DNA of 50,001 nucleotides, taken from a virus. The stretch's first letter is position 1, and each line of letters starts with the position of its first letter. Where the stretch lies: the IMG/VR virus record IMGVR_UViG_3300036845_000765, positions 1-50,001 of that record; one strand, written 5' to 3'. Below, one piece after another: positions 1 to 50,001 of this stretch. A program made the position numbers and the translations under genes. The notes below the pieces were generated by a model that was not told the origin of the DNA, searched no databases, and was given only the letters and a program-made list of their open reading frames with translations.

Positions 1-182
1 TACTACAACTTCACCGGGGCGCTGCAAGGTGCCTTGGCCCAGTTCCAAGACAACGTCAAGCGTGCACCCAACGACAAGGAAATCAAGGAAATCGGCAATC
101 ACCTGATCCAAGAACAAACCGCTAACACCTGGTTCGGTGGCGCGTTCGGTGGGGAGCCGTTGTATAACATCTCCGTGCCTTC
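1..182. repeat. left copy of the repeated end
   Basis: Matches 49820-50001 with four substitutions clustered at 45, 48, 55 and 56. Two are silent; the pair at 55-56 changes Val (GTC) to Thr (ACC). The spacing gives a unit length of 49,819 bp. Confidence 0.9.
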
Positions 183-11884: not shown

Positions 11885-12105
11885 TGGTGGTTGATTGACC
11901 AATGAGCGACACATGCAAGCTCAGCGTCAGCTCTTGTGTTGTATTCTCCAATGTCATGGCGCTTTGTTGCATTGGGATACTCTTTTGAGCTTACATTCCA
12001 TTTCAGTGTTTGTTCGTCGTAGGAAATGACATACTGGAAAGGTTTGCGCACAGCCCCCCAGCATTTCATATCCGGGAATGGGGAAGGTAGGCTTATCCAT
12101 TGCAT
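11881..12105 (-). CDS. small ORF lodged between the exonuclease and polymerase genes
   Basis: A 74-residue protein (77 if ATG 12114 is used) that I do not recognise. It contains no HNH, GIY-YIG or LAGLIDADG motif. It fills the gap between the exonuclease-bearing and polymerase-bearing halves: its start follows the TAA of the upstream gene by one base, and its stop overlaps the ATG of the polymerase. An AAAAGGG site is well spaced for ATG 12105. Its frame differs from that of the two flanking genes, which share a frame with each other. Confidence 0.6.
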   Translation of the reverse strand: MQWISLPSPFPDMKCWGAVRKPFQYVISYDEQTLKWNVSSKEYPNATKRHDIGEYNTRADAELACVAHWSINHQ

Positions 12106-12106
12106 G

Positions 12107-13207
12107 TTATTCATCCCTTTTGATTGTATCCGATTTCTTCCGTTCGCTCTTCCATGGACCGTGGTTGGTATAGATACTCCCCAGGTATCCCAGGCTCTTC
12201 AAGCTTTCCGGTTGGAGCGCGTGGTGGAGGAGCATGGTGTCGTGGACTGCTCCAAGTACACGGATCCCATATGACCGGAGGAGGAAGGCAATGTCGTAGA
12301 GTCCGTTTTGGAAGACTTTGAGGACTGCTGGATCCTCAAGCACCGAACGTATAAGGCTCCAACATTGTCGTTCAAGGTCTTTAGTAGGCCAATAGTTTCC
12401 CGAGTCTGCACGTGAGTCATGGATTGGAATAACAATCGCAAGGTCTCGTCTGGGAGCGAAACCCAGGCAGGTAATCTGCGTCCCGCTTGTTTCAATGTCG
12501 ACCGAAACAAGGCGGCCTGGAATAATGTGTTGCTGGAAGAAGGTTTGGATGTCTTCGATGGTCGGTTCGATCCAGATTTCGACTTTGGGGCGGGAGACAT
12601 TCGGGGTTTCCTTTTCGGTGAGGATCTTGCTCAGGTCCGCGACTACTGTTGGTCGGAGTTGCCATTGTCGGTTGACCGCGGAAGGGTGGTAAGTAAGCAG
12701 GCATTTATAGTCAGCAACACAGTGAGAACTACTAGCAGTGGTGCCACGAAGCTTAGTAACGCCGGTGTTACCCAGGAGAGCCCAAATAGCAGCGTTGCCA
12801 AGGCACACAATGAGATTTGGATCCACATGAAGAATTTCATCACCAAGCCGTATGATTTCCGACTCATAACCCATCTGTGCATATCCCGCTTTGGTAAGTT
12901 TTCCATATCCTGGGATTCCTGTTGCTTTGGGCCCGCAGAGTTCGCTGAGATCATTCCCAGGTGGGCGAAGGTTGAAGACGTTGGTTCGATAGAGTTCTGG
13001 GTGGGCGGTCCAGATGCGGTCGAGGGGCCAAGGGTCTCGGGTGGCCCAGAAGGATTGGATGTTGGCGTGGTCGGCTGGGGTGAAGTCGATCACCCCAGCG
13101 TCGTTGAGCATACGGAGGAGTTCACAGCCGGTGGTGCCGCAGAAGCCGCGTTTGATCTTGGCTTCGTTTTCTCCCCAACACTCACCTATAAGGACTATCG
13201 GTTTCAC
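12107..13207 (-). CDS. uracil-DNA glycosylase domain fused to DnaQ-like 3'-5' exonuclease (ExoI and ExoII only)
   Basis: A 366-residue two-domain protein. Residues 1-200 look like a family 4/5-type uracil-DNA glycosylase: VLIGECWGENE near the start, YRTNVFNLRPPGN at 73-85, IVCLGNAA at 133-140 and LTYHPSAV at 171-178. Residues about 208-366 are the start of a PolA-type proofreading exonuclease: ExoI D237-x-E239 and ExoII N301-x3-D305. No ExoIII Tyr/Asp is present before the stop; it is on the polymerase gene. The GTG start at 13207 overlaps the previous stop (GTGA), better than the ORF-maximal start at 13372, which lies inside the upstream gene. Excising uracil next to the polymerase could couple repair to replication (inference). 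Confidence 0.82.
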   Translation of the reverse strand: MKPIVLIGECWGENEAKIKRGFCGTTGCELLRMLNDAGVIDFTPADHANIQSFWATRDPWPLDRIWTAHPELYRTNVFNLRPPGNDLSELCGPKATGIPGYGKLTKAGYAQMGYESEIIRLGDEILHVDPNLIVCLGNAAIWALLGNTGVTKLRGTTASSSHCVADYKCLLTYHPSAVNRQWQLRPTVVADLSKILTEKETPNVSRPKVEIWIEPTIEDIQTFFQQHIIPGRLVSVDIETSGTQITCLGFAPRRDLAIVIPIHDSRADSGNYWPTKDLERQCWSLIRSVLEDPAVLKVFQNGLYDIAFLLRSYGIRVLGAVHDTMLLHHALQPESLKSLGYLGSIYTNHGPWKSERKKSDTIKRDE

Positions 13208-13554
13208 TTGCAGAGATCTTCCACGAGCTTCCCATACCCAACCACGTCTTCCCAATGCTGGCGCTCCATGGACTTTCCGCTGAGGATCCTTGAGAACTTC
13301 AACGCGATCATGTCCATGGCTTCGCGTTCCACATCGGTCAACCGGTCCCAACCTGTGGATGCACGAAAGCATCGCTTGAGCATTTGGGAAACCAGGGCGT
13401 TCTCGGCGAAGTCGCCATGGGTGGATTGTCGGGTGGTTAGGAGGGGGTGGCGTTCTGGTTCTGTCACGTACGTAATACCTCCAGGGCGTAGTTCGGGAGA
13501 GTTGATCTCGGCTTCCATCGCGGACACATCAAACGCTTTCGGGTATTTGCTCAT
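13204..13554 (-). CDS. DUF6378-like protein
   Basis: A 116-residue protein with the features of a phage family usually listed as DUF6378: a THGDFxxNA segment near residues 45-52 and a long helix with EAMDMIALKFSRIL, then HWEDVVGY near the C-terminus. Acidic residues in the helices are reminiscent of MazG-like/all-alpha nucleotide hydrolases, but no activity is established. It sits at the head of the repair/replication genes, downstream of a probable terminator, and is coupled to the glycosylase-exonuclease gene. Confidence 0.72.
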   Translation of the reverse strand: MSKYPKAFDVSAMEAEINSPELRPGGITYVTEPERHPLLTTRQSTHGDFAENALVSQMLKRCFRASTGWDRLTDVEREAMDMIALKFSRILSGKSMERQHWEDVVGYGKLVEDLCK

Positions 13555-34178: not shown

Positions 34179-35222
34179 ATGGCAATTATCGGCTCGACCG
34201 CCCTAACGTACGCTGACTGGGCCAAACGCCTTGATGACGGCTATCGCGTAGCCTCCATCATCGAACTCCTATCCCAGACCAACGAGATCCTCGATGACAT
34301 GATGGTCGTCGAAGGCAATCTCCCCACCGGCCACAAAACAACCGTCCGGACCGGCCTTCCCCAGGCCACTTGGCGATTGCTCAACACCGGTGTCCCCAAC
34401 GCCAAGTCCACCACGGCCCAGATCGTTGACACCTGCGGGAACCTCGAAACCTACTCGGTCATCGACAAAGACATCGCGGATCTCAACGGCAACACGCCAG
34501 AGTTTCGTCTGTCAGAGTCCCGCGCCTTCCTCGAGGGTATGTCCCAGCAAGTCGCCGCTACCCTCATCTACGGCAACCAGTTCCTCAACCCAGAACGCTT
34601 CACTGGCTTCGCCCCTCGCTACTCCACCCTCACCACCGCGAACTCCCAAACCGCCAACAACGTCCTCTCCGGCGGTGGCGCGGCCTCCACCAACACCTCA
34701 GTCTGGATCATGACCTGGGGAACCGATACCAACCACGCCACCTTCCCCAAAGGCAAGCTCACCGGTCTCCAACAGCGCGACATGGGCGAATGGCCGGTCA
34801 CCGATTCCCTCGGCAACACCTACCAAGCCTACCGCGAACACTTCAAATGGGAAATCGGGTTCGTCCAGCGCGACTGGCGCTACATGGTCCGCGTTGCCAA
34901 CGTCGACGTCACCCAGCTCACCGGCGTCTCCGCGGCCAACCTGATCAACCTGCTCATCCGCGGCCTCTACCGCCTGCCCACCGCGCCAGTCTCAGCTACC
35001 ACGATCCAAACCTCCGACTCCCCAATGGTTCGGGCCGATATGGGTCGAACGGTGATCTATTGCAACCGCATTCTGAGGACGTATTTGGACCTCCAGGCAA
35101 TGAATAAGACTAACGTGCTTTTACGCCTGGAGGAATTTAACGGTCGGCCTATTACAACTTTCCGGGGAGTTCCTGTAAGAACCGTAGACGCTATCTTGAG
35201 CAACGAGGCAACGGTATCATGA
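34179..35222 (+). CDS. major capsid protein (Bbp17-like)
   Basis: A 347-residue coat protein. The start MAIIGSTALTYADWAKRLDD and the segments LLSQTNEILDDM, EGNLPTGHKTTVRTGLP, WGTDTNHATFPKG and ILRTYLDL are typical of coat proteins from BPP-1-like podoviruses. It follows the scaffold gene after a 98-bp gap. From about 35085 to the stop, codons shift from C-ending to A/T-ending forms (for example TTA, AGA, GTA), exactly next to the inserted HNH gene. Confidence 0.92.
   Translation: MAIIGSTALTYADWAKRLDDGYRVASIIELLSQTNEILDDMMVVEGNLPTGHKTTVRTGLPQATWRLLNTGVPNAKSTTAQIVDTCGNLETYSVIDKDIADLNGNTPEFRLSESRAFLEGMSQQVAATLIYGNQFLNPERFTGFAPRYSTLTTANSQTANNVLSGGGAASTNTSVWIMTWGTDTNHATFPKGKLTGLQQRDMGEWPVTDSLGNTYQAYREHFKWEIGFVQRDWRYMVRVANVDVTQLTGVSAANLINLLIRGLYRLPTAPVSATTIQTSDSPMVRADMGRTVIYCNRILRTYLDLQAMNKTNVLLRLEEFNGRPITTFRGVPVRTVDAILSNEATVS
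35214..35222 (+). repeat. GTATCATGA, left copy at the HNH insertion boundary
   Basis: The nine bases GTATCATGA contain the coat protein's last codon and stop and the HNH start. The same nine bases occur at 35711-35719, spanning the HNH stop and the start of the cement gene. The copies are 497 bp apart, so deleting one unit would restore a direct coat-cement junction. Confidence 0.72.
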
Positions 35223-35719
35223 CTCCAGATCTATTAACACAGGATTTAGTCAAAAGATTCCTTCGCTACGATCCTGAGACAGGCGATTGGACTTGGATTG
35301 AGCAGATAAACTCTCGTGTTGAGGTTGGAGATGCTGCTGGAACCATCAGTGTGCATGGTTATCGTATCATCACATTCTTTGGTTACAAGTATCGCTCAGC
35401 AAGGCTAGCTTTCCTATACATGACAGGAAGATGGCCTGACAAGGAAGTTGATCACGAGAATCGTTGCAAGACAGATGACCGCTGGGTTAATCTACGAGAT
35501 GTGACTCGTTCAGATAACCAAATCAATCGGGACTTGCAAGGAAACAACACATCTGGCGAGCGAGGTATTCACTGGGACACTAACAGGAACAAATGGTTTG
35601 CACAGGTCAAAAGAGACAATGTCACTTTCTCTGTAGGCCGATACGATACCATGGAAGAAGCTGTAAGTGCCAGAGATGCCTTCATTGAAACCTACGATTC
35701 GAAAAGGAATGTATCATGA
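35219..35719 (+). CDS. HNH homing endonuclease with AP2 domain
   Basis: A 166-residue protein with HNH-type residues in EVDHENRCKTDDRWVNLRDV (D78-H79, N91) and N100, and an AP2 DNA-binding domain at about 111-155 (SGERGIHWDTNRNKWFAQV). It cuts intron- or gene-less alleles to promote its own copying. It lies precisely between the coat and cement genes with overlapping starts and stops at both ends, and its base use is clearly more AT-rich than its neighbours. This is an inserted free-standing element. Confidence 0.88.
   Translation: MTPDLLTQDLVKRFLRYDPETGDWTWIEQINSRVEVGDAAGTISVHGYRIITFFGYKYRSARLAFLYMTGRWPDKEVDHENRCKTDDRWVNLRDVTRSDNQINRDLQGNNTSGERGIHWDTNRNKWFAQVKRDNVTFSVGRYDTMEEAVSARDAFIETYDSKRNVS
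35711..35719 (+). repeat. GTATCATGA, right copy at the HNH insertion boundary
   Basis: Second copy of the 9-bp sequence at 35214-35222; it holds the HNH stop codon and the ATG of the cement gene. Confidence 0.72.
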
Positions 35720-36273
35720 TCCTCGATGGCTACTTAATGTTCACCAACTTCATCGGCGGAGGCACCGGCACTGGCGACTCCCCAACCACTGGTACCCAGG
35801 TCTCCACCAACCAGCTCGACCTCGGCATCATCGGTCTCCCACTCTCGGCCTCTGGCGGCGGTGCTCGCGATATCGGTATCGGCGACGACCCAGCGATGAA
35901 AATCGCAGTGATCGTCACCACCACCTTCACCGGCGGGACCTCGCTCCAGGTCAACATCCAGGGAGCTCCCGACAACGGTTCCGGTGCCCCAGGCTCCTAC
36001 ACCACCATGCTCTCCGGCCCAGTGGTAGTCGAAGCCAACCTGCTCGGCGCGACCTCGACCAGCTTCGCCGGCACCCGCGTCCTCGATGTCGACATGCCTA
36101 GACCCGCTCCGGCCCAGGCACTCCCACGCTTCATCCAACTCCAATACATCACCGTCGGCACCCACACCGCCGGCGCAGTCAAAGGCTTCCTAGTCCTTGA
36201 CCGCAACGACATCCCACTCGGCACCACCGCTGCCCTTTCCGGCTATCCCGCCGGTATCACCATCGCGAACTGA
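35716..36273 (+). CDS. capsid cement/decoration protein (Bbp16-like)
   Basis: A 185-residue protein matching the layout of Bbp16-type capsid cement proteins: an N-terminal MILDGYLMFT and a GGGARDIGIGDDPAMKIAVIVTTTF strand region. It should bind the outer capsid after the coat protein. In the ancestral order it directly followed the coat gene; the HNH gene now separates them. Confidence 0.82.
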   Translation: MILDGYLMFTNFIGGGTGTGDSPTTGTQVSTNQLDLGIIGLPLSASGGGARDIGIGDDPAMKIAVIVTTTFTGGTSLQVNIQGAPDNGSGAPGSYTTMLSGPVVVEANLLGATSTSFAGTRVLDVDMPRPAPAQALPRFIQLQYITVGTHTAGAVKGFLVLDRNDIPLGTTAALSGYPAGITIAN

Positions 36274-36283
36274 GGAGGGCACA

Positions 36284-36925
36284 ATGAAGCGTATCCTCCT
36301 CGCAACCGGTCTGTTCCTGGGGTTGGCTCTACCAGCCTCGGCCCAGATCAACCTAGTCCCCCAAATCGGCCTAACCACCGGCTACCTGCCCCACACCACA
36401 TATTCCTCAGCCTTCTTCGGCCTTGTCCCCCCAGCATCCGCAACCGATATGGTCTGCATTGCTGGGTCAACCTCCAAAACCGTCCGGGTACAACGAATCG
36501 TCATCGGCGGCACTGCCGCCACTCTCGTCGGCCTACCCATCCAAGTAGTCCGCCGGGCCTCCCTTGACACCGGCGGTACCATTGGCACAACCACTGCCAA
36601 CCCAGGTATCACCACCCAAATCGCCAAGCGCGACACCACAACCGGTGCCGCGACCGCAACCTTGGTCTCCTACACCGCAGTCCCAACCATCAACGATACC
36701 GCGCCGACCTACCTCGACTCAAGCCTGCTCCTACTCAACACCACAGCAGCAGCGACCAACCCACTAATGACCATCTTTGACTGGTCGCGCGACATCGAAA
36801 ACCAACTACAAGTCCCTTCGATCCAACCGGCCGCCACAGTCGTTCAGCAAATCTGTGTCAACTTCGGTGCGGTCTCGATCACCACCGGTGCCCTGAATGG
36901 TCAAATTACCTGGACAGAGGAATAA
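36284..36925 (+). CDS. exported beta-rich virion-region protein 1
   Basis: A 213-residue protein starting at ATG 36284 after a GAGGAGGG site. Residues 1-20 are a Sec signal peptide (MKRILLATGLFLGLALPASA) with cleavage before Gln21. The mature part is Thr/Ala/Val-rich, beta-type, with two cysteines (CIAG; QICVNF). It resembles phage fibre- or decoration-type beta domains, but the signal peptide is unexpected for a virion part. First of five such proteins. The longer frame to 36197 is rejected. Confidence 0.74.
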   Translation: MKRILLATGLFLGLALPASAQINLVPQIGLTTGYLPHTTYSSAFFGLVPPASATDMVCIAGSTSKTVRVQRIVIGGTAATLVGLPIQVVRRASLDTGGTIGTTTANPGITTQIAKRDTTTGAATATLVSYTAVPTINDTAPTYLDSSLLLLNTTAAATNPLMTIFDWSRDIENQLQVPSIQPAATVVQQICVNFGAVSITTGALNGQITWTEE

Positions 36926-36928
36926 CCA

Positions 36929-37369
36929 ATGAAACGCCTAGTCATCAACGCAGCCCTGATCCTTGGTTTGGCCGGAGGCCTTGCCTTTGCTCAGACCATC
37001 AACTCGGCACTACAGGTATCTCAAGACGGTCGAGGGATCTTCGGGGTTGACACTAACAACAACCTGTACATCCAGTCCAACCGACACTTGTTGGCTACTT
37101 CCAACGTCTCCCCTGCCCCAGTCCTAACCTCCTGTGGTACCTCCCCAACTATTACCGGTTCGGACTTTAGCTTCAAGCTAGTGACCGGTTCGGCAGCGAC
37201 CACCTGTACCATTACCTTTGGACAGGCATTCGTGACCGCTCCCCAATGCTTCCTTCAAGCAAACGGCGGTGCAACCCAACCAACCTACACAACCTCAACC
37301 ACAGCGCTCACAGTAACCGTGGACATCGCTTCCACGACCTACTCTGGTCTCTGCATGAGCATATCGTAA
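36929..37369 (+). CDS. exported small fibre-domain protein 2
   Basis: A 146-residue protein with a signal peptide at 1-21 (hydrophobic, ending AFA before Gln22). The mature part contains a domain common at the C-terminus of tail fibres: SCGTSPTITGSDFSF...TTCTITFGQAFVTAPQCF. Four cysteines would suit an oxidising compartment. It follows the previous gene by three bases. Confidence 0.74.
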   Translation: MKRLVINAALILGLAGGLAFAQTINSALQVSQDGRGIFGVDTNNNLYIQSNRHLLATSNVSPAPVLTSCGTSPTITGSDFSFKLVTGSAATTCTITFGQAFVTAPQCFLQANGGATQPTYTTSTTALTVTVDIASTTYSGLCMSIS

Positions 37370-37379
37370 GGAACCTCCA

Positions 37380-38600
37380 ATGAAACTTCCCGCACTCGCG
37401 CTAGCCGCACTCCTCGCTCTCAGCGCGAGTGCGTTCGCCCAAGGTGTCGACTCCACCCTCCAAACCCCAGCCATCTACCCTGGCATCGACGGAGGTTCCC
37501 AGTTCGTCCGGCTCGAGCCCACCCAGATCTTCTGGGACGACTACGGCGCGACCCTGGACACCACCAATCGCTGGACCACCCCAACCACCGGAGGCGGGGG
37601 TAACGCTACCGCCGCTACCAACTCCGGTGGCTCGTCTGTCCTAGGTTCCGGCACCACCGCCTCCGGCTGGTCCATCCTCCAGTCCCAAACCACCTTCGCC
37701 GGGCGCAACCCGGGATACATCACCTTCCAGGAACAAAACAACATCGAGTTCCCGGTCATCACCGGAGCCTACCGCTTCTGGGGATTCGCGACCATCCCGG
37801 GCTCGCCAACCGTAGCCGCCCCACTCACCGACGCGGTTGGCTTTGCCGTCCACTCCAACGGCCATCTCTTTGCGGAAACCTGGGCTGCGGGATCCCTAGC
37901 CCTAGCCATTGACCTCTCCATCCCCGCCACCGGCTATCAACTCTGCCAGTGCATCGGCCAGCCCCCCGATTCCGGAGTCCACAAATACCAAATCAACTTC
38001 CGGGGAGACAACATCCTATGGTGGGTGGACGGCCGACTAGTCTACCGCACCCTCTCCGGCGCGCCCGGCCCAGTAGTCAACACCCTCCCAGTCGCCCACC
38101 TCGCGGTAGCCGGCCTATCCAACATCTCCGCTTCCGCAACCATCACCCTGAACGGTACAACCATCGGCGACTCCTCCCGCAACGCAGTCCAGATCTCCGA
38201 CGGTACCTTCCCCTGGCGCAAGGTCGTTGTGGATGCCAATGGATCACTCCAGACCACAAAGCCGTTCACCCAAATCACTGGCAACGCAGCCGGATCCACA
38301 GCAGCCGTGGTCGGCACCCTAGCCGCAGCCACGGGCAAGCTAACCTACATCTGCGGCTTCAACGTTTCAGCCATTGGCGGCACCGCCTCCGTCTGCCCTG
38401 TCACCGTTGCCGGTACCACAGGCTCGTCTCAGGTCTACCAGTGCGCAGCCAACACCGCCGCCGGTGCAGTTATTGTACCAACCAACGTGTTCACTCCATG
38501 CATCCCGTCCTCCGCAGTCAACACCGCGATCACTATAACCACCACTGCAGACGCCACTGCCACCGCGGTTGACGTCAACTCCTGGGGCTACCAACAGTGA
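37380..38600 (+). CDS. exported lectin-like protein 3
   Basis: A 406-residue protein with a Sec signal peptide at 1-20 (ending SAFA before Gln21). Residues about 50-265 look like a concanavalin A/LamG-type sandwich (WDDYGATLDTTNRW; YRFWGFATIPGS; HKYQINFRGDNILWWVDGRLVYR). A C-terminal Cys-bearing beta domain follows (YICGFNVSAIGGT...). It probably binds glycans. The signal peptide would place it in the periplasm or cell surface unless cleaved or ignored. Confidence 0.76.
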   Translation: MKLPALALAALLALSASAFAQGVDSTLQTPAIYPGIDGGSQFVRLEPTQIFWDDYGATLDTTNRWTTPTTGGGGNATAATNSGGSSVLGSGTTASGWSILQSQTTFAGRNPGYITFQEQNNIEFPVITGAYRFWGFATIPGSPTVAAPLTDAVGFAVHSNGHLFAETWAAGSLALAIDLSIPATGYQLCQCIGQPPDSGVHKYQINFRGDNILWWVDGRLVYRTLSGAPGPVVNTLPVAHLAVAGLSNISASATITLNGTTIGDSSRNAVQISDGTFPWRKVVVDANGSLQTTKPFTQITGNAAGSTAAVVGTLAAATGKLTYICGFNVSAIGGTASVCPVTVAGTTGSSQVYQCAANTAAGAVIVPTNVFTPCIPSSAVNTAITITTTADATATAVDVNSWGYQQ

Positions 38601-39445
38601 GACGCCTTCTCTTAGCCCTACCCACCCTCCTATCGCTGAGCAGCCCCTCCCATGCCCAGCTATTCCAATGCGCGCCTGGAATCTGTCCCTGGGCTATCTT
38701 CACCGGCTTTGCCTCTGCCATCGCTACCCCAACCCAAACCCTCGATGGCACTGCCACCGGCACCAGCCATGCCTCAACAACCGTTACATCCGCCGGCCTA
38801 ACCACCGCCGGCACAAACGATATCCTCGTCGCCTATGTCTTCAACAACCGAACTGCGGCCCAGGCCAGTGCCACGTCCGTATCCGGCATCACCGATTCTA
38901 GCACCCTAACCTGGGCCCGTCGAGGCTCAGCCTGTTCCTTCCAATCAGGCGCCGCTGGCACTCCGTTCATCACCGCAGAAATATGGTGGGCCTTAGCCCC
39001 AACCGCGCAAGCCTCAAACGTCCTCACCATAACCTTCTCCGCAGTAACCGACAACGCCATCGTCATCGTCTCCGGCGTAACCGGAAGCAAAACCGCAACC
39101 CCATTCGACACCAACGCATCCTTACCCAAATGCGTCACTTCCAGCGCCACCACCGCGCCAACCGCAACCGCGGTCTCCACAACCTGCAACCACACCTTCA
39201 TGCTCGCCGGGACCACCTCAGCCAACACCGCTTCCGACCCAGGAACCCAAACCATCGGCAACTCCCCAGCGATGTTCACAGCAATCAGCCTCAACAACCT
39301 CGCCGCAGCTGGGATCAACTTCCTTCGCGGGGCCAACGAATACCTAGCCAACTCCTCAGCCCAATCCTCGGTCAGTCCAGGCTTCTCCACATCCTGGGCC
39401 GGTTGGGCCATCCTCGTCGATGCACTTCAAGCAACCACCTGCTAA
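38597..39445 (+). CDS. exported Thr/Ala-rich protein 4
   Basis: A 282-residue protein with a signal peptide at 1-20 (ending PSHA before Gln21) and a Thr/Ser/Ala-rich beta-type mature region with seven cysteines, one at the very C-terminus. No enzyme motif. It overlaps the previous stop by an ATGA-type junction (GTGAGAC region). Function unknown; adhesin- or fibre-like. Confidence 0.7.
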   Translation: MRRLLLALPTLLSLSSPSHAQLFQCAPGICPWAIFTGFASAIATPTQTLDGTATGTSHASTTVTSAGLTTAGTNDILVAYVFNNRTAAQASATSVSGITDSSTLTWARRGSACSFQSGAAGTPFITAEIWWALAPTAQASNVLTITFSAVTDNAIVIVSGVTGSKTATPFDTNASLPKCVTSSATTAPTATAVSTTCNHTFMLAGTTSANTASDPGTQTIGNSPAMFTAISLNNLAAAGINFLRGANEYLANSSAQSSVSPGFSTSWAGWAILVDALQATTC

Positions 39446-39465
39446 CCAGAAAGGAACTCCCTCCC

Positions 39466-40176
39466 ATGGCCCGTTGGAAACTTACCGAGCCCCACTACCT
39501 TAACGTCCCAGGAACCAAATGGGAACAAACCATAACCGATCGCGCCACCGGCAAACAGATCCGCAAGATCTACAACGTCCCAACCCATTTCCACCCAGAT
39601 GTGGATGCCGACTGCAACCGCCGCGATGGCTTCGATCAGTTCATCATCGTCTGTCACGAAGGCAAAGGCCACCCCGATGGCAAGGACATTGTCTTCGTTG
39701 GCGACCCAACACCGGGAATGCTCCCCATCGACGACGAAGCCCGCGAGCTCTCATCCAAGTTCGCGTGGAAACCAACCCAGGGAACCGACGATATCTCACA
39801 AAGCAACAGCTTCTCTTCCCAGCTTCTCGGCGGTCTCCTCGACCAAATGTCCGAACTCCAAACCAAAGTCGTCGCAGTCCAAAGCCCAGGCATGGACAAG
39901 TTCATGGAAACCATGGCTGCGATGATGCTTCAGCAAACCCAGATCCTCGCCGCGATTGCCGGGAAGCAGGCTGTGGTCGAGCCCCCGGCCGAGCAAAAAG
40001 CTGAACAGCAAATGGTTGAAGAGCTCGATCTCGAACCGGTCATCGACGAAGAGCCTCCCTTGGACGATGCTCCCATAACCAAGCGCGAGATCGACCAAGC
40101 CTCCAAGGCCGCGGCTGCCAAGGACAAGGCTTCCGTGGAACGTGCCATGGAACGTGTCTCCTCCAGGCGAGTCTAA
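39466..40176 (+). CDS. hypothetical virion-associated protein
   Basis: A 236-residue protein without a signal peptide. Residues 1-100 are compact (MARWKLTEPHYLNVPGTKWE; NVPTHFHPDVDADCNRRDG), then helical regions and a Glu/Pro-rich stretch (about 170-205), and a basic end. It is a common kind of short-tail phage protein of unknown role. The start is ATG 39466, after AAAGGAAC; the longer frame from 38983 lies in the preceding gene and is rejected. Confidence 0.7.
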   Translation: MARWKLTEPHYLNVPGTKWEQTITDRATGKQIRKIYNVPTHFHPDVDADCNRRDGFDQFIIVCHEGKGHPDGKDIVFVGDPTPGMLPIDDEARELSSKFAWKPTQGTDDISQSNSFSSQLLGGLLDQMSELQTKVVAVQSPGMDKFMETMAAMMLQQTQILAAIAGKQAVVEPPAEQKAEQQMVEELDLEPVIDEEPPLDDAPITKREIDQASKAAAAKDKASVERAMERVSSRRV

Positions 40177-40179
40177 CTC

Positions 40180-40605
40180 ATGCCCAGCCAGCTCGACTTG
40201 GACCAAGGCGGTACCGTTCGCCAAACCCAGCTGGTCAACCTAGGACCCTCCGTTGGCTGGGTCCTAGCTCCCTACGCATGGTACTGGGCAATAACCACAG
40301 CCGGTACCACCAATATCCTCCGAGGAACCTCTGTGGTCACAATCAATGTCAACGGAAATGTCAACGTTCAACTACCATCCGCCAAGCAAAACCCAGCCGG
40401 CCCACAAGCCGTCCCTGGATCCTTCATTGGCGCGCCAGTTACCATTCTAGACCTTGGAGGCTTCGCACCTGGGGCAGTCTATACCATCCTCCCATTCGGT
40501 GCCGAACTCATCGATGGCCTAGCCTCAATCGTGATCTCTTCCCAATACGGTCTCTATCAGCTCCAACCCAACCTCATCTCCGGTGGATGGAATCTTCGAC
40601 AATGA
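40180..40605 (+). CDS. hypothetical beta-rich structural protein
   Basis: A 141-residue protein (MPSQLDLDQGGTVRQTQLVN start) with beta-type repeats and no signal peptide. Probably a small tail or fibre part, judged from position between exported proteins. Overlaps the tailspike ATG. Confidence 0.65.
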   Translation: MPSQLDLDQGGTVRQTQLVNLGPSVGWVLAPYAWYWAITTAGTTNILRGTSVVTINVNGNVNVQLPSAKQNPAGPQAVPGSFIGAPVTILDLGGFAPGAVYTILPFGAELIDGLASIVISSQYGLYQLQPNLISGGWNLRQ

Positions 40606-41939
40606 GAAAGCTCATCCTAGCTCTGGTCATCGCGCTGTTCCCGACCCTGGCGATGGCCCAATGCAACGGCGTCTTCGCTCCACATACCGCCTGTGGCAAC
40701 GGCACCAACAACCCAGCTATCCCAGGCCAAGTGGTTATCACCGCTCTCGGTGCCAATACCTTTGCCAACATCGCAGCACTCCGGGCCAACACTCAGGCAT
40801 TCCCAACTGTCTATGTCCAAGGCTACACGACAGTCGCTGATGGTGGGGAAGGTGTATTCAACTACGTCGCTTCCGACACAACCACCACAGACAACAACTG
40901 CACAATCTTCGTTGATGCCTCAGGCCATCGCTACTACCGGCCACTTCAATTAGATCTATCCGTCAAGTGGTGTGGCGCTAAAGGTAATAGCTCAACCGAT
41001 GACACGACAGCAATTCAGGGTGCTATAAACACTGCCAAAGCCTACACCAACGGAGCTTTGTGCGTTATCTTCCCGCCAGGGAACTATGTCATAAGCTCGC
41101 TAAACGCGACTCACTGGACCGGTGGCTGCATGCGGGGTGCTCCTGGGTCGCAGGGTTCTGTCATCTATGCGGCTAATCAAGTATCGCCCGCACCCATCTT
41201 GGATATAACGTCTTCTCCCGGCACGTACTTCGCCAATCTTCTATTCTTCGGAACGACGGCCGGGGGTGCAGCCCCGGCCGTGTTTCCCAATGTAGGTGTA
41301 CTCATTGCTGCCGGACCTGGCTTATCTGACACCGATCTTATCCGTTTCGATTTCGTGCAGTTCGCTGGGTTTTTCAGCACAGCGGCCTGCTACGTCTATT
41401 CGGTCTCGGACCTCCGGTTCGATTCAGTCAACTGTGTCAACGACAATACGTCCGTCGGCTATGGATTTGTTGCTGGAGGGGTAAATGTCTTTTCGGTGAC
41501 GTCTCCGTATACCACAATCGGAACTGGCACAGGAGTGTCTGGTGATCTTACTTGGTATGGTGGATCCGGGGGTATTGGCGAACTTGCACCTAGTCAATCA
41601 ACCATTCTCCTCGTCGGGGTACAAGGCTATCGGTTCCGCGATGGCGTGATTGGCGCCGGTGCTACATCACATTTCATCCAAATCCAAGGTACGTGTAGCT
41701 CGTGCACATTTGAGTCTATCGAGCTTAACACTACTTCAGGTACTCTTCCAACCGATCTATTCTTCTTCAGCGGTGCAACCATCACTGGTATGTTCATTGC
41801 CAATCTACAATCCGGAGGACAATATTCTGGAAACATGTTGAACGGTGGCAGTTCGACAATAACCGGCGGGGCCATCGTCGGCATGGTTCCTGCTTCCATC
41901 ACTGGGCCGTTCGCGGCTAGTTTCAGCCATCTGCCGTAA
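40602..41939 (+). CDS. beta-helix tailspike-like protein with signal peptide
   Basis: A 445-residue protein with a Sec signal at 1-19 (ending AMA before Gln20). Residues about 40-110 carry a tailspike-type VYVQGYTTVADGGEGVFNYV segment; residues about 120-160 have the pectate-lyase-like VKWCGAKGNSSTDDTTAIQGAIN motif, followed by a right-handed beta-helix. Such spikes bind or cleave surface polysaccharide. Around ten cysteines are present. A signal peptide on a tailspike is unusual. The start overlaps the previous stop (AATGA); the longer frame from 40278 is rejected. Confidence 0.78.
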   Translation: MRKLILALVIALFPTLAMAQCNGVFAPHTACGNGTNNPAIPGQVVITALGANTFANIAALRANTQAFPTVYVQGYTTVADGGEGVFNYVASDTTTTDNNCTIFVDASGHRYYRPLQLDLSVKWCGAKGNSSTDDTTAIQGAINTAKAYTNGALCVIFPPGNYVISSLNATHWTGGCMRGAPGSQGSVIYAANQVSPAPILDITSSPGTYFANLLFFGTTAGGAAPAVFPNVGVLIAAGPGLSDTDLIRFDFVQFAGFFSTAACYVYSVSDLRFDSVNCVNDNTSVGYGFVAGGVNVFSVTSPYTTIGTGTGVSGDLTWYGGSGGIGELAPSQSTILLVGVQGYRFRDGVIGAGATSHFIQIQGTCSSCTFESIELNTTSGTLPTDLFFFSGATITGMFIANLQSGGQYSGNMLNGGSSTITGGAIVGMVPASITGPFAASFSHLP

Positions 41940-43370: not shown

Positions 43371-44510
43371 ATGGCTGACCAAATCTCAATCTACAACCGT
43401 GCCCTCGCCAGCTTCGGCGCGCGCACGACTGTTCAGGCATCGGAGATTACCTCGCCAGTCTCCAACGAAGCCATCCAAGCCAACCTCATCTACATCCCCT
43501 ATCTCCGTCGCCTCCTCCGCATGGCCCCTTGGCAATGTGCCTTCAACGCGGCCCAGCTAACCTACATCACCTCCGTCTACGGAACTCCCGAGAACGTCAC
43601 CGCGGCGCAGACCATCTGGGCCAAGGGCCAGCCCATGCCGCCCTATGCCTATGAATACCAATACCCAGCGGACTGCGTCATGGCCCGCTGGGTCACTCCC
43701 CAGACCGCCACCGGGTTCGCCTCAGGCATCCCAATCACCACAGCCGTCACCGGGGGAGCTCCAACCTTCTGGCAAGGCCCACCGGTGAAGTTCACAACCG
43801 GTGTGGATCAGTTCTTCAACGTGACCGGTGTAACTGTCCCCGTTGGAGGGGGCGGGTATGCGGTTGGGGACCTTGTGACTTTGGCCCTAGTCCCCAACAC
43901 CTCCATCCTCACCAACCAACTCTCCACCTTCCCAGTCGGCTCTCCCCAAGGCGCTGCACCAGTTGTCACCGTCACATCCATCCAAGGCCCCGGTCCCACC
44001 GGCCCGATCTCCACAGTCGCCCCATTCTCCATCCTCCCAACCGAGGACACTCCATTCACCGGATCGTTGTTCTACCAATACGCTACCCTCCCAGTTCCAC
44101 AAGGCTCCTCAACCGGCGGCGGAACCGGAGCGTCCTTCAACCTCGTCTACGGCGGACCTTCCGACCAGCGCGTCATCCTCTGTAACCAAGAATTCGCAAT
44201 CCTCAACTACGTCAAACTTGTCCTCGACCCCAACGCCTGGGATGATTCCTTCCAAGAAGCTTTCGTCCTCATCCTCGGTGGCGCCCTCTGCAAGGCCCTA
44301 ACCGGCGACACCAAGCGCGCTAACCTCGCCATCGCCCAGGCTAACGCGATGATAATGGAAGCTCGAGGCAATGATGGGAATGAAGGCTTGCGAGTCAACG
44401 ACGTCACCCCAGACTGGTTAAGAACTAGAGGAATTGATTATGTAGAAGACTACAGTGGTCCCTACAATACGGGTTTTAATTATGGGGCTATCTGGCCAGG
44501 ATTCACATGA
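43371..44510 (+). CDS. tail tubular protein A-like / head-tail adaptor
   Basis: A 379-residue protein starting MADQISIYNRALASFGARTTV, typical of gp11-like adaptors that join portal and nozzle. A Gly/Pro-rich insertion lies at about 130-240. From about 44405 to the end the codons change to A/T-rich forms (TTA AGA ACT AGA GGA), as in the last part of the coat gene. Followed directly by the nozzle-like gene (ATGA). Confidence 0.8.
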   Translation: MADQISIYNRALASFGARTTVQASEITSPVSNEAIQANLIYIPYLRRLLRMAPWQCAFNAAQLTYITSVYGTPENVTAAQTIWAKGQPMPPYAYEYQYPADCVMARWVTPQTATGFASGIPITTAVTGGAPTFWQGPPVKFTTGVDQFFNVTGVTVPVGGGGYAVGDLVTLALVPNTSILTNQLSTFPVGSPQGAAPVVTVTSIQGPGPTGPISTVAPFSILPTEDTPFTGSLFYQYATLPVPQGSSTGGGTGASFNLVYGGPSDQRVILCNQEFAILNYVKLVLDPNAWDDSFQEAFVLILGGALCKALTGDTKRANLAIAQANAMIMEARGNDGNEGLRVNDVTPDWLRTRGIDYVEDYSGPYNTGFNYGAIWPGFT

Positions 44511-47407
44511 GCAAGCCAGTCATCCAAACCTCCTTCAACGCTGGCGAATGGGCCCCGGCCCTGAACGCTCGTGTCGATCTTGCCAAGTACCATAGTGGAG
44601 CTGCTCTCCTCCGCAACTTCTTCGTGGACTACCGCGGAGGCGCCACCACCCGCCCAGGGACCAAATACATCGCCTCAGTCATCAACCCCGGCTCAGCATT
44701 CCCGGCTCGGCTGATCCCGTTCCAGGCATCGTCCAGTATCGCCTATGCCCTGGAGTTCGGCCAGAATTACATTGGGTTCTATTTCAACGGCGCCCCGGTT
44801 GTGGAGAACGCAACTACCATCAACACAATCTCCAATGCCAACCCTGGGGTGGTCAGTGACACTGCCCATGGGTATTCCACCCTTGACAGGGTACTCATCA
44901 CCGGCGTCGGCGGGATGACCCAAGTCAATGGGCAGGTATACAGAATAACCGTAATTGACGTCAACCGCTACACACTCAAAGACATCTTCGGCAATGTTGT
45001 TGACACGACCAGCTTTGGCACTTACACTTCCGGAGGTACCGCTCAGCGGGTCTATATCATCTCGTCCCCATACCTATCCAGCGAAGTATTTCAGATCAAA
45101 TATACCCAGAACGTAAGCACTCTCATCCTAACCCACCCAAACCATCCTCCGTACGTCCTGACCCTAATCACCGCGACCAACTGGACCTTGGCCGCTATTG
45201 TCTTCGGCTCAACCGCGCCAGTACCAAGCCCGAGCGCCACCTCCACCCTCGGTGCTGGATCGGTCAACTACTCCTACTGCGTCACCGCCGTCGACGTAAC
45301 CGGCCAAGAAAGCGCACCTGGATTCGGTTCGGCCACGCTAGCGGGTCTGCTAGATCTCAGAACCACTCCCGGGACCAACACAATCTCCTGGATAGCCACA
45401 GCCAACACAGCCAGCTACAATGTTTACAAAGCAGAACTTAGGTATGGCACCCCAGTTCCCAGCGGTGCCCAGTTTGGATTCATAGGCAATTGCACAGGCG
45501 TGTCATTTATCGATAGCAACATCGCGCCAGACTTTGCCACAACCCCTCCTGTGGTTCAAAACCCATTCTCCGGATCCGGAGTCCAGAATGTAACCGTAAA
45601 CTTCTCAGGCAATAACTACCCGGCGGTACCATCTGTCACATTCACCGCTGCACCAGCCGGTGGATCCACCGCTACCGGCTTTGCCGTGATGACCGGGATT
45701 GCCTTCTCAATCGCCTCGGCCGGATCCTTCTACATCGTTGGCGATGTTATAAACTTCGCCCAGGGTGTTGTTGGGCAGGTTGCTTCTGCTACCCCTATAA
45801 TACCCGGAGGTGGGGGTTCGCCCGGATCCGGAGGGAACGTAACCGGCATTACCATCATAAACTCCGGTGCGGTGATTGGTCCTGGGGTAGCGTTGACCAA
45901 CCCACTAGGGCAGGTCACGACCACCAGTGCTAGGGGGACCGGGTTTATTATGAACGCAAACTGGGCTGTGATCTCGGTATCGCTAACCTCAGCCGGGGCG
46001 GGGTATCTAGTAGCCCCAACTATCACATTCAGCGGAAGCTTCGGTGCCGTGGCCACAGCTACGCTCGGTGGCGCTTCCCAGGGTAGTGGGATCGCGGTAG
46101 GGAACTCCACAGTCGCGGGATACTTCCAACAGCGTTTGGTCCTCGCTGGGCCGGTTAGCAATCCCCAGCAATTCAACATGTCCCAGCCTGGACAATACTA
46201 CAATTTCAACATCAGCAACCCTCCCCAGGCTGATGACGCTATCTCTGGAACCCTGGTCTCTGGGCAGTTAAACACAATCAAATCCATGATCGCTATGCCA
46301 ACAGGCCTGATCGTGTTTAGCGATCGCCAAGCTTGGCTGATCAACGGAGGGTTCAACGCTGCGCCGGTGTCAGCATTGGCCACTACCGCGAACTCCCAAG
46401 CCTACAATGGCTCATCCGATCTCCAGCCGATAGTGGCTAACTATGATATCTTGTACGTCCAAGCCAAGGGTTCGGTTGTCCGGGATCTGACCTATAACTT
46501 CTACACCAACATCTTCACGGGTAGCGACATCTCAGTCCTGTCCAGCCATCTATTCTACGGCTACAAAATCGTCCAATGGGCCTGGGCCGAGGAGCCATTC
46601 CGCCTTGTCTGGGCTGTCCGCAGCGATGGTGCCCTGCTATCCCTGACCTTTCTAAAAGAACAAGAAATGCTTGCTTGGTCCCACCATGATACCGGGTTTG
46701 GAACATTCCGGTCGATTTGTACCATCACCGAGTCAACGCCCACCGGCACCGTTGATGCTATTTATGTCATCGTCCAGCGTCAGATAAACGGCCAAGCGAT
46801 GAACTATGTGGAAAGGCTTGTGGAATTACCACAGCCTACCAGTTACAGATTCTCTTGGCAAGTCGATGCTGGGATACAGTATAGCGGAGCCGCAGCCTCA
46901 ACCTTCTCCGGGGCACAGCATCTAGCCGGCATGCCCGTCACCGGATTGGCTGATGGTGTTGTTATCAATTTCACCATGCCAACTTCCGGGACGTTTGTGT
47001 TTGGCAACGGCGGGACCGCTGGCCTAACCAACATCGCACCTTCGTCGGTGGTCACGGTTGGTCTAGCCTTCACTCCCCAGATCCAAACCCTGGCCCTGGA
47101 CCTTGGCGAACCAACCGTTCAGGGCAAGCGCAAGAAGGTTTCTGCAGTGACCGTCCGGGTTGCCAATGCTCTAGGCTTGTACGCAGGCAAAACCCTAACC
47201 ACTACCCAGCCAATAAAGGATCTCATCATCGGCCAAACCGGAACCATGTCCAACGCGCCGGTTACCGATCTCCAAACCACAGATTGCCGACTCTACATCG
47301 ACCCAGCCTGGGACGTGTTTGGGCAATATTTCATCACCCAACCAAACCCATACCCGGCGTCCGTGCTCGGCGTGATCCCAGAGATTGAAATTGGGGATGA
47401 CCCATGA
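44507..47407 (+). CDS. tail tubular protein B-like (nozzle) protein with FCCH-like domain
   Basis: A 966-residue protein. The start (KPVIQTSFNAGEWAPALNARVDLAKYHSG) is typical of gp12-like nozzle proteins of short-tail phages. Residues about 110-190 resemble an FCCH-type beta domain (VVSDTAHGYSTLDRVLITGVGG). A fibronectin-like part (SATSTLGAGSVNYSYCVTAVDVTGQESAPG) follows, then long beta-rich regions. It should form the end of the tail and hold fibres or spikes. Coupled at both ends. Confidence 0.82.
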   Translation: MSKPVIQTSFNAGEWAPALNARVDLAKYHSGAALLRNFFVDYRGGATTRPGTKYIASVINPGSAFPARLIPFQASSSIAYALEFGQNYIGFYFNGAPVVENATTINTISNANPGVVSDTAHGYSTLDRVLITGVGGMTQVNGQVYRITVIDVNRYTLKDIFGNVVDTTSFGTYTSGGTAQRVYIISSPYLSSEVFQIKYTQNVSTLILTHPNHPPYVLTLITATNWTLAAIVFGSTAPVPSPSATSTLGAGSVNYSYCVTAVDVTGQESAPGFGSATLAGLLDLRTTPGTNTISWIATANTASYNVYKAELRYGTPVPSGAQFGFIGNCTGVSFIDSNIAPDFATTPPVVQNPFSGSGVQNVTVNFSGNNYPAVPSVTFTAAPAGGSTATGFAVMTGIAFSIASAGSFYIVGDVINFAQGVVGQVASATPIIPGGGGSPGSGGNVTGITIINSGAVIGPGVALTNPLGQVTTTSARGTGFIMNANWAVISVSLTSAGAGYLVAPTITFSGSFGAVATATLGGASQGSGIAVGNSTVAGYFQQRLVLAGPVSNPQQFNMSQPGQYYNFNISNPPQADDAISGTLVSGQLNTIKSMIAMPTGLIVFSDRQAWLINGGFNAAPVSALATTANSQAYNGSSDLQPIVANYDILYVQAKGSVVRDLTYNFYTNIFTGSDISVLSSHLFYGYKIVQWAWAEEPFRLVWAVRSDGALLSLTFLKEQEMLAWSHHDTGFGTFRSICTITESTPTGTVDAIYVIVQRQINGQAMNYVERLVELPQPTSYRFSWQVDAGIQYSGAAASTFSGAQHLAGMPVTGLADGVVINFTMPTSGTFVFGNGGTAGLTNIAPSSVVTVGLAFTPQIQTLALDLGEPTVQGKRKKVSAVTVRVANALGLYAGKTLTTTQPIKDLIIGQTGTMSNAPVTDLQTTDCRLYIDPAWDVFGQYFITQPNPYPASVLGVIPEIEIGDDP

Positions 47408-48379: not shown

Positions 48380-50001
48380 ATGCCCCAAGCTCCCCAAGGC
48401 CTGCTCCCAGATGTCTCGCCCTCCGGCCAGGGAACTCCGGATATCTCCCTCCCAGTCCCGACCGAAGCCTTCGGTGGCGCGGTCGGACAGGCTCTGCAAA
48501 CCCTTGGTGGGGATATCACCAAAAGCTCGGACACGATCTGGTCTCGGGCTATGGAGATGCAGGGACTGGCCAATGAAACCGCGGCGAAGGATGCGGACGC
48601 TAAGTACATGATGCAGTCCGGCGTGATGCATGCTAAGTTTATCAATCTCGAAGGCCAGAACGCTAGTCCCGAAGCCTTGGCCAAGCACATTCAAGATCTC
48701 CAAGATCTCCGGACCAACCTTCGCCAAGGGCTGAACCCAGCCGCAGCGAGGATGTACGACGGCTCCTCCCTATCCTTCATGGCGCGGAATATCTTCAACG
48801 CAGCCGGGCACGCTGGGCAACAGCAGAATGTGGCTGCCAATCAAGCAGATCAATCGCGGATCCAGGCCATCGACAATCACATTGGCGACAACCCCCAAGA
48901 CGAAATCGCCTTCAAGCGCGGTATCGCTGCCAAGTCCGCTGCGATCGAGGATATGGGTTCCCGGTCCGGCTGGTCTCCCCAGAAGGTGGATGAAACCAAA
49001 CAAGAATCCATCTCGACCTCGTATGCTCATCGTATCGAAGGCATCGCCAAGACAAACGCTATCGCCGCGCAGAGGATGTTGGATAGCGGAACCAAGGATG
49101 GGTCGATCACAGACAATGATTCGCTAAAACTCCAAGCAACCATCAACACTCGGTTTCGAGACCAGGGCTCCCGAATCATCACCGACCAGGTCCTCGCCAA
49201 TCGCCGGGATGGCAAAGAACGCGACCAACCAGAACAATACTACATCGACAAGGCCGAAGCCCAGGCCGATCAAACGATGAAAGACAACAACATCACCGAT
49301 CCGTTTTTTAAGGATGCGGTGAGGAAGACTATCCAAACCCAGTTTGGGCACCAAATGACTGTCGAACGCAGTCAGGAGTTCCAAGACAAGCAGACCTTGA
49401 CCAACGCTCTCCAACACACCAACGCGGAAGGGTTTCATCCGCGGTCTGTGGATGAACTGAAATCCGTCGACCCAGCCACCTCCGCAGCCTGGGACCGGAT
49501 GCAGCCGACTGATCAAGATCGGTTCCGAGGGATCCTTCGGGATATCGCGGCGGGCAAGCGGATTGAACCAACCGATGAAAACCAAAAGCGTTATACAACC
49601 CTTCTAGGCATGGCCGGCCCAACCGGTGATCGCAATGCGTTTATGAACACGGACATCTGGAAAGAGAACATCCCTCTGGCCCAGCGCAACCAACTCCTAT
49701 CCCTCCAGCGCTCGGCCGTTCTCCAGTCCGCCCAGGACCCGCGGGTTGGTCACGCTATCGGCATCCTCAAACAAGACGCGTCCTTCGCCGGGATCGACAA
49801 AAAGCAAGACGCGGATTCATACTACAACTTCACCGGGGCGCTGCAAGGTGCCTTGGCCCAGTTTCAGGACAACACCAAGCGTGCACCCAACGACAAGGAA
49901 ATCAAGGAAATCGGCAATCACCTGATCCAAGAACAAACCGCTAACACCTGGTTCGGTGGCGCGTTCGGTGGGGAGCCGTTGTATAACATCTCCGTGCCTT
50001 C
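48380..50001 (+). CDS. gp15-like internal virion protein, N-terminal 540 residues (runs off the window)
   Basis: Starts at ATG 48380 (MPQAPQGLLPDVSPS) and stays open to the window edge. It is a charged helical protein without recognised catalytic residues. Its last 182 bases match bases 1-182, so the rest of the gene (to 363) is at the left edge, giving about 600 residues. Position supports a gp15-like ejected core protein. Confidence 0.76.
   Translation, partial: MPQAPQGLLPDVSPSGQGTPDISLPVPTEAFGGAVGQALQTLGGDITKSSDTIWSRAMEMQGLANETAAKDADAKYMMQSGVMHAKFINLEGQNASPEALAKHIQDLQDLRTNLRQGLNPAAARMYDGSSLSFMARNIFNAAGHAGQQQNVAANQADQSRIQAIDNHIGDNPQDEIAFKRGIAAKSAAIEDMGSRSGWSPQKVDETKQESISTSYAHRIEGIAKTNAIAAQRMLDSGTKDGSITDNDSLKLQATINTRFRDQGSRIITDQVLANRRDGKERDQPEQYYIDKAEAQADQTMKDNNITDPFFKDAVRKTIQTQFGHQMTVERSQEFQDKQTLTNALQHTNAEGFHPRSVDELKSVDPATSAAWDRMQPTDQDRFRGILRDIAAGKRIEPTDENQKRYTTLLGMAGPTGDRNAFMNTDIWKENIPLAQRNQLLSLQRSAVLQSAQDPRVGHAIGILKQDASFAGIDKKQDADSYYNFTGALQGALAQFQDNTKRAPNDKEIKEIGNHLIQEQTANTWFGGAFGGEPLYNISVP
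49820..50001. repeat. right copy of the repeated end
   Basis: Second copy of bases 1-182, ending at the window edge. It shows circularity or concatenation rather than a real physical terminus, because it lies inside a gene far from the terminase. Confidence 0.9.

Follow-up and report, generated by a model that had tools for sequence, protein, structure and literature searches.

The soil phage examined here, an epsilon15-like podovirus, probably assembles its tailspike from two pieces that are made in different compartments. The window, meaning the whole stretch of DNA analysed (IMGVR_UViG_3300036845_000765, 50,001 nt), encodes five proteins, S1 to S5, with features of host export. We favour, with somewhat better than even confidence, an overall reading of Sec export, periplasmic disulfide bonds, a spike split into S5 and its anchor p141, and docking at lysis. 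S1-S5 would be exported by the host Sec system, cut by signal peptidase I and folded in the periplasm with disulfide bonds. The p141 anchor would remain in the cytoplasm and be built onto the tail, while the S5 body, translated from the overlapping gene, would be exported and oxidised. Lysis would then mix the compartments and allow S5 to dock on p141 via its mature N-terminal peptide QCxGVFxxNTxCGN. In this phage and nearly all its close relatives, tail spikes and related binding proteins carry ordinary bacterial export signals, so that these components of the virion probably form outside the cytoplasm and reach the particle at lysis. The usual assembly of tailed-phage parts in the cytoplasm weighs against this proposal, as does the risk that spikes arriving from another compartment are diluted at lysis.

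Export signals between capsid and tail genes

All five genes lie on the plus strand. The N-terminus of S1 (36284-36925) consists of MKRILLATGLFLGLALPASA followed by QINL, with the signal peptide at 36284-36343 and a predicted mature start at Gln21. For S2 (36929-37369; signal peptide 36929-36991), the predicted cut separates MKRLVINAALILGLAGGLAFA from QTIN, giving a mature start at Gln22. The corresponding predicted cuts lie between MKLPALALAALLALSASAFA and QGVD in S3 (37380-38600; signal 37380-37439), between MRRLLLALPTLLSLSSPSHA and QLFQ in S4 (38597-39445; signal 38597-38656), which has a GTG start and a 4-bp overlap with the S3 stop, and between MRKLILALVIALFPTLAMA and QCNG in S5 (40602-41939; signal peptide 40602-40658). 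In every case a positive n-region leads into a hydrophobic core and a small-x-Ala site, which has Ser at -3 in S4. The first 40 residues of S1-S5 contain no lipobox, and the Cys of S5 is at +2, not +1. RR is absent from four of the proteins; S4 starts with MRRLLLAL and has no clear Tat motif. The five genes with Sec signal peptides described in the initial annotation exist as reported, with textbook Sec and signal peptidase I features throughout. All five are positive under a home-made prediction rule, not SignalP, that recovered 8 of 9 E. coli signal peptides, and the pattern across the clade is far beyond chance.

Gln follows the predicted cut in all five proteins, as had been noted, but the background rate of this residue is high: it occupies +1 in 15 of 32 signal peptides of a Terriglobia genome and in 0 of 7 of an alphaproteobacterium. 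We therefore reject a special code of Gln at +1 as the main point; the regularity is largely a habit of the host signal peptidase and not a phage specialty. The residue is invariant in the S1, S2 and S5 alignments, where some selection on it is possible.

Among 74 dereplicated loci from relatives of the window phage, signals are concentrated between capsid and tail, with 117 signal-bearing genes out of 423 in this interval compared with 1/370 upstream genes, 0/26 tail genes and 0/159 minus-strand ORFs. Despite divergence of the signal sequences themselves, a signal is retained in 42/44 homologues of S1 and 45/46 of S2. The neighbouring anchor and tail-adaptor genes give just a few weak, low-scoring calls across the relatives. 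Five relatives at first scored zero signals. For L036, a signal-bearing spike is present and had been overlooked by the greedy gene caller; L005 is incomplete, and its signal-bearing spike is found on L202, another stretch of the same contig. Signal-like N-termini are visible in the sequences of L047 and L068. L048, which has a one-piece fibre, is the only one of the five that seems truly signal-free on its available sequence. Some relatives also encode unexported, Cys-poor fibres (a 426-aa gene in L004 and a 927-aa gene in L047), so export is not required for every fibre. We conclude that the exported-protein pattern is a trait of the whole clade and may extend more widely among acidobacterial phages. 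In the more distant relatives, signals are few (2 of 90 genes).

The cysteines argue for export independently of the signals. Mature S1-S5 contain 2, 4, 6, 6 and 10 Cys, all even numbers; the description of several of these proteins as Cys-rich fits S2-S5 and does not extend to S1. An even count is found in 42/47 mature signal-bearing families versus 22/42 upstream and 4/8 tail proteins, and the host control shows the same contrast (20/26 signal-bearing versus 200/438 other proteins). In S1 and S2, Cys columns come and go two at a time, the S1 pair being Cys58/Cys191. Such pairing fits folding under oxidising conditions. Because the signals are retained and the cysteines are paired, export is strongly supported, and we strongly infer that S1-S5 leave the cytoplasm via the host Sec system.

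Two alternatives would remove cleavage or the signals altogether. If the hydrophobic N-termini stayed uncleaved, they would act as membrane anchors or virion-insertion helices. The AF2 models do show a helix at the N-terminus, as for most signal peptides, and cleavage itself is predicted; yet conservation of the small-x-Ala site and the Gln contrasts with a drifting core sequence, conserved sequence starts at the mature start, the +1 residue tracks the host's own signal peptides and the Cys pattern fits oxidising folding, which together make this reading very unlikely. That the signals reflect chance or wrong start codons, with the true start downstream of the hydrophobic stretch, is hardly credible. 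The GTG start of S4, with no clear Shine-Dalgarno site, would suit it, but purine-rich, Shine-Dalgarno-like sites precede S1-S3, and conservation already contradicts it, since dozens of independent sequences show the same pattern.

A proposed tailspike split between S5 and p141

S5 matches phrog_4250 (EPS depolymerase) and PF12708 (35.5 bits versus a cut-off of 27, covering only the start of the profile), in agreement with its earlier designation as a beta-helix tailspike. Its gene overlaps that of p141 (40180-40605, plus strand; 141 aa) by 4 bp (ATGA). p141 has no signal and carries the N-terminal motif MxSQLDLDQGGTFRQxxRxYLGPSVGW. In most relatives the anchor is directly preceded by the conserved p237, which also lacks a signal (39466-40176 in the window, plus strand). 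The mature S5 chain, with its predicted start at Gln20, opens with QCNGVFAPHTACGNG (40659-40703, plus strand), a proposed docking motif in which Q, C, G, F, C and G are invariant. C21 and C31 within it are predicted to form a disulfide. This peptide is conserved, and the remainder of the spike is swapped among relatives.

We surveyed 58 non-redundant loci with the anchor as a separate gene. In 50 of them a signal-bearing gene follows directly, nearly always an SP-QCxGVFxxNTxCGN spike, and most of the rest are truncated. The ATGA overlap contains the start of 45 of these 50 genes, and spike Cys counts are even in 44/49. A few relatives (L079/L081 and L257) have the anchor and a beta-helix-like spike fused in one protein. 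The fused proteins of L079 and L257 contain neither a signal nor the docking motif, and the C-terminus of L079 matches annotated tail fiber proteins. Terriglobia chromosomes gave nothing convincing for the S5 N-terminal motif, the weak matches having no relation to it (one is a host signal peptide in L187), and p141 found no match there in a search run without a positive control. Strong comparative evidence points to S5 as the body of a two-piece tailspike split from p141. Physical binding of S5 to p141 on the virion would be supported indirectly by the anchor-spike fusions; docking and its timing at lysis are suggested less firmly. Of the functions proposed in the initial annotation, addition to virions after lysis fits S5 best, because an unexported anchor is encoded by a gene of its own and one-piece fusions exist.

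P22-type tailspikes share the right-handed beta-helix body and can join finished heads in vitro. The P22 tailspike is made in the cytoplasm, lacks a signal and carries the head-binding domain within its own chain. A closer likeness is found in the K1-5, K1E, SP6, G7C and KP32/KP34 groups, where a virion adaptor or anchor carries separate receptor-binding proteins docked through a short N-terminal peptide that stays conserved as the remainder of the spike is exchanged (PMC6872550). The window phage likewise has a separate conserved anchor beside the spike and a short conserved N-terminal peptide on a variable spike. It differs by the Sec signal before the docking peptide, the two Cys within it and a stand-alone anchor overlapping the spike gene. 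The passages on adaptor-docked receptor-binding proteins in that source make no mention of export (PMC6872550). Searches of the open-access literature turned up no account of tail spikes exported by Sec.

Well-supported export would also suit proteins that never join the virion and act in the periplasm, on the surface or in the medium, where they could block superinfection, mask receptors, bind released particles or degrade polysaccharide. The fold of S3 is carbohydrate-active or carbohydrate-binding in type, and signal-bearing phage envelope proteins are known, for example lambda Lom (PMC12309495). Like the Rz1 spanin lipoproteins, which use a lipoprotein signal (PMC9144972), Lom is a phage protein using host export; both differ from S5 as envelope or lysis proteins and not receptor-binding parts (PMC12309495, PMC9144972). 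What makes us judge this reading rather unlikely is that the same anchor is fused to the spike in one-piece proteins, that the overlap of spike and anchor genes is near-universal, and that the modular C-termini, which change quickly, and the fibre motifs are what virion receptor-binding proteins typically show. In addition, no second spike gene was recognised in this terminally repeated genome. The direct repeat at 1-182 (plus strand) has a 98% identical second copy at 49820-50001, and the gene at 48380 continues across it as far as 363, which indicates an essentially complete genome.

The probable accessory proteins S1-S4

S1 is a predicted exported jelly-roll protein of 213 aa (AF2 model pLDDT 82). 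Its placement on the virion is tentative because its matches to solved folds are weak (Z about 8 or less). The small protein S2 corresponds to a fibre C-terminal domain that stands alone; the same domain terminates long fibre-like proteins in Terriglobia prophages. For S3, the lectin-like sandwich seen earlier is confirmed as a GH16/concanavalin-type sandwich at residues 43-267 (37506-38180), with Z 18.2 to lichenase and an rmsd of 2.9 over 172 residues for a model of pLDDT 68.5. The catalytic ExDxxE motif of GH16 is absent from S3, and the Pfam GH16 score is under the cut-off. The C-terminal domain of S3 (38247-38594) is common to many exported proteins of the clade. S4 is an orphan, with no homologues found among the loci of the relatives. 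Comparison of S1 and S2 with PHROGs gave nothing convincing, and the isolate phages in INPHARED contain no match to S1, S2, full-length S3, the S3 C-terminal domain, the S5 N-terminus, p141 or the L037 fibre. We regard S1-S4 as probable accessory proteins, for binding or decoration, that would follow the same route as S5. Their membership of the virion is suggested more weakly, and display or blocking roles may apply, especially to these four.

The signals are host-like and a small number of Terriglobia genomes encode domains resembling S1 or S2, as would be expected of host secreted proteins that were acquired as cargo and play no part in the virion cycle. Of 299 genomes, only 5 and 13 have such matches, several of these adjoin phage portal, capsid, terminase or protease genes, and the position between capsid and tail genes is conserved, which renders a cargo origin highly improbable.

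Affiliation, host and wider significance

If Sec-dependent spike assembly holds, final virion assembly would depend on the host Sec system, signal peptidase, disulfide enzymes and the moment of lysis. Textbook assembly of tailed phages is cytoplasmic, and separate compartments for a receptor-binding protein and its anchor depart from it. The proposal would account for disulfide-stabilised spikes suited to soil, would open a new route to receptor-binding proteins in phages of a little-cultured phylum, and predicts that spikes on the virion start with Gln or pyroglutamate at their mature N-terminus. Unrelated Terriglobia prophages likewise encode tail-fibre-like proteins whose N-termini bear hydrophobic signals, and the habit may therefore have arisen in more than one phage lineage. 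More tentatively, and with slightly less than even confidence, we propose that the virions of tailed Acidobacteriota phages are completed outside the cytoplasm, with spikes and probably decoration proteins routinely exported by Sec, disulfide-bonded in the periplasm and mounted at lysis on anchors of particles assembled in the cytoplasm, and with an origin in more than one lineage. Assignment of the host to Acidobacteriota calls for caution: its basis is a single MAG contig (L084, with 82% identity in the capsid) together with the Gln habit at +1, and a partial Telmatospirillum MAG contig (L085, 84%) urges restraint.

The window phage has homologous capsid, portal and tail genes in epsilon15 order, and shares with Uetakevirus (epsilon15/phiV10-like) the succession of portal, protease, capsid, cement, tail adaptor and nozzle genes. 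In epsilon15, only gp9 and gp10 are found at the place of the exported cassette, and its spike, gp20, has its gene at another place, downstream of gp17. In the window, the genes after the 2094-aa gene, where a spike in gp20 position was sought, begin with an endolysin, and the spike sits between capsid and tail adaptor. With its spike outside the gp20 position, the phage is a relative of epsilon15 and not epsilon15 in the strict sense. All flanking structural genes are on the plus strand. The major capsid protein (34179-35222) is epsilon15 gp7-like (phrog_212, E 1e-78) and about 50% identical to that of phiV10 and relatives. The tail adaptor (43371-44510; phrog_394) is in the position of epsilon15 gp11 and is followed by the tail nozzle protein (44507-47407; phrog_376); neither has a signal. 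A putative cement protein (35716-36273; phrog_427), also without a signal, occupies the position of epsilon15 gp8. This syntenic gp8 is annotated as BPP-1 cementing-protein-like.

Genes with export signals between capsid and tail

The 50,001-base contig carries a 182-bp terminal repeat, and because the gene at 48380 continues across this repeat, the genome is essentially complete. The portal is of the T7 type (PF12236) and the capsid protein is ~50% identical to those of phiV10 and its relatives. The gene order portal–protease–capsid–cement–adaptor–nozzle is the same as in epsilon15, but from cement protein to tail adaptor epsilon15 has just gp9 and gp10, where the window has S1–S5, the five signal-bearing plus-strand genes at 36284, 36929, 37380, 38597 and 40602. 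The near relatives are uncultured, one being located in a Terriglobia (Acidobacteriota) MAG, and no cultured relative was found in the collections searched. A homing-type HNH gene directly follows the capsid gene (35219–35719). Elsewhere, the family-A DNA polymerase is encoded by two ORFs (10388–13372), with the exonuclease part fused to a uracil-DNA glycosylase domain, and the endolysin (6641–7300) has a phage lysozyme domain preceded by a SAR-like N-terminal hydrophobic segment.

The initial annotation had assigned Sec signals to all five genes, and this is borne out: all are standard Sec signal peptides without a lipobox. For 74 dereplicated clade loci (capsid identity >75%), a rule predictor rather than SignalP, applied to a crude gene caller that misses some starts, called signals in 117/423 interval genes, 1/370 upstream genes, 0/159 minus-strand ORFs and 0/26 tail genes. 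Of the 74, 63 loci extend 4 kb or more past the capsid gene, and automatic calling finds one or more signal genes in 58 of them; among the remaining five, L048 alone looks truly signal-free on the available DNA. The 118 signal-bearing proteins fall into 38 sequence clusters and therefore do not represent a single inherited gene. The signal is conserved in 42/44 homologues of S1, at identities as low as 28%, and in 45/46 homologues of S2.

The cassettes of relatives hold further protein types. A 922-aa protein (L025:14302–17070; start MKISRRELLAGASAMS...APLHAW) has a signal that is Tat-like rather than Sec-like. A very hydrophobic, probably polytopic membrane protein of ~350 aa, possibly a surface-polysaccharide modifier, lies among the exported genes at a corresponding position of the cassette in several relatives (L124:9403–10464, L177:2176–3222). 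Exported and unexported fibres coexist in some relatives, since large fibre-like proteins with few or no Cys and without signals are also present (L004:8707–9987, L047:5531–8314, L036:15778–17775).

Cysteine pairing and the residue at +1

Even Cys numbers are a typical tendency of periplasmic proteins. With each 30%-identity family represented by one protein, the Cys count is even in 42/47 mature signal-bearing proteins, 22/42 upstream proteins and 4/8 tail proteins. In a null with matched length and Cys frequency, even counts averaged 48% and peaked at 72%. The same contrast is seen in a Terriglobia genome between its own signal-bearing proteins (20/26) and the remaining proteins (200/438). 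Cysteines are also gained and lost in pairs: two S2 alignment columns are both occupied in 16 sequences, both empty in 5 and split in 1, and in S1 one pair is present in 22 and missing from 3, another present in 4 and missing from 21. Relatedness of the sequences inflates the p-values, and the direction is uniform throughout. Mature S1–S5 contain 2, 4, 6, 6 and 10 Cys. This pattern is independent evidence of export, and we strongly infer that the five proteins are exported by Sec, cleaved and disulfide-bonded.

Cleavage before Gln had also been proposed for all five. Gln does follow every predicted site, but the coincidence is not very remarkable, since Gln occupies +1 in 15/32 strong signal peptides of the Terriglobia genome (0/7 in Bombella), which gives 0.47^5, ~2%, with repetition among related phages in addition. 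The residue supports an acidobacterial host and real recognition by signal peptidase. Because it is invariant across the S1, S2 and S5 alignments, a functional role such as pyroglutamate formation is possible.

The S5 spike and its candidate anchor

Homologues of S5 (40602–41939), the proposed beta-helix spike body, share the signal and ~25 mature residues (QCNGVFxxNTxCGN) and diverge beyond, as docking peptides typically do. The gene ahead of it, p141 (40180–40605), lacks a signal, and its N-terminus, MxSQLDLDQGGTFRQxxRxYLGPSVGW, is near-invariant. In 58 non-redundant p141 loci from an IMG/VR scan, the following gene is signal-bearing in 50, with a shared 4-bp ATGA overlap in 45 of these; most of the remaining loci are cut short. 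In L238 a homing-type HNH gene (6414–6890) is inserted between p141 and the signal-bearing spike. Cys counts are even in 44/49 spikes of these loci.

In L079 and L081, a single 803-aa protein joins p141 (48% identical along its length) to a beta-helix-like spike; the protein has five Cys and neither a signal nor the docking motif. The C-terminal domain of this fusion has matches among annotated tail fiber proteins, from Klebsiella phage KpV74 and Burkholderia phage BcepC6B. L257 carries a second such fusion, and the one-piece fibre of L048 includes a Peptidase_S74 chaperone and weakly matches the anchor motif. Mainly because these one-piece fusions exist, S5 is probably the virion spike and p141 its anchor.

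Gene arrangement, retained signals, paired cysteines and the fusions themselves are directly observed. In the mechanism that we propose, p141 would be put on the tail in the cytoplasm while oxidised S5 would wait in the periplasm, and lysis would mix the compartments so that the two could join. Short-peptide docking onto a virion adaptor is described for K1-5, SP6, G7C and KP32-type phages (PMC6872550). Docking of the spike by a short peptide would be the common element, whereas the signal ahead of the docking peptide is new in the window clade and would place the two spike halves in different compartments.

S1–S4 and fibre-like proteins of Terriglobia prophages

S1 is a predicted jelly roll (pLDDT 82); its BFVD matches are uncharacterised phage proteins (E 1.5e-12), and it resembles viral jelly rolls, phage cement proteins and C1q-like domains only weakly. 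A GH16-type sandwich (Z 18.2) forms part of S3, which lacks the GH16 catalytic motif and has a C-terminal domain common to many exported clade proteins. S4 is an orphan. From position and fold, our guess is that S1–S4 are virion members.

S2 is a free-standing form of the C-terminal domain of long fibre-like proteins in Terriglobia prophages. These prophages are unrelated to the window phage and carry portal phrog_113, capsid phrog_1005, terminase phrog_5909 and protease phrog_328. Their tail-fibre-like proteins of 1250–1280 aa (L308:2308–6066, L310:4477–8328, L315:6866–10669) combine S2-type C-terminal domains with hydrophobic N-terminal signals or stretches, judged by eye in few loci and called in none of the three by the rule predictor. 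The genes adjoin those for portal, capsid, terminase or protease.
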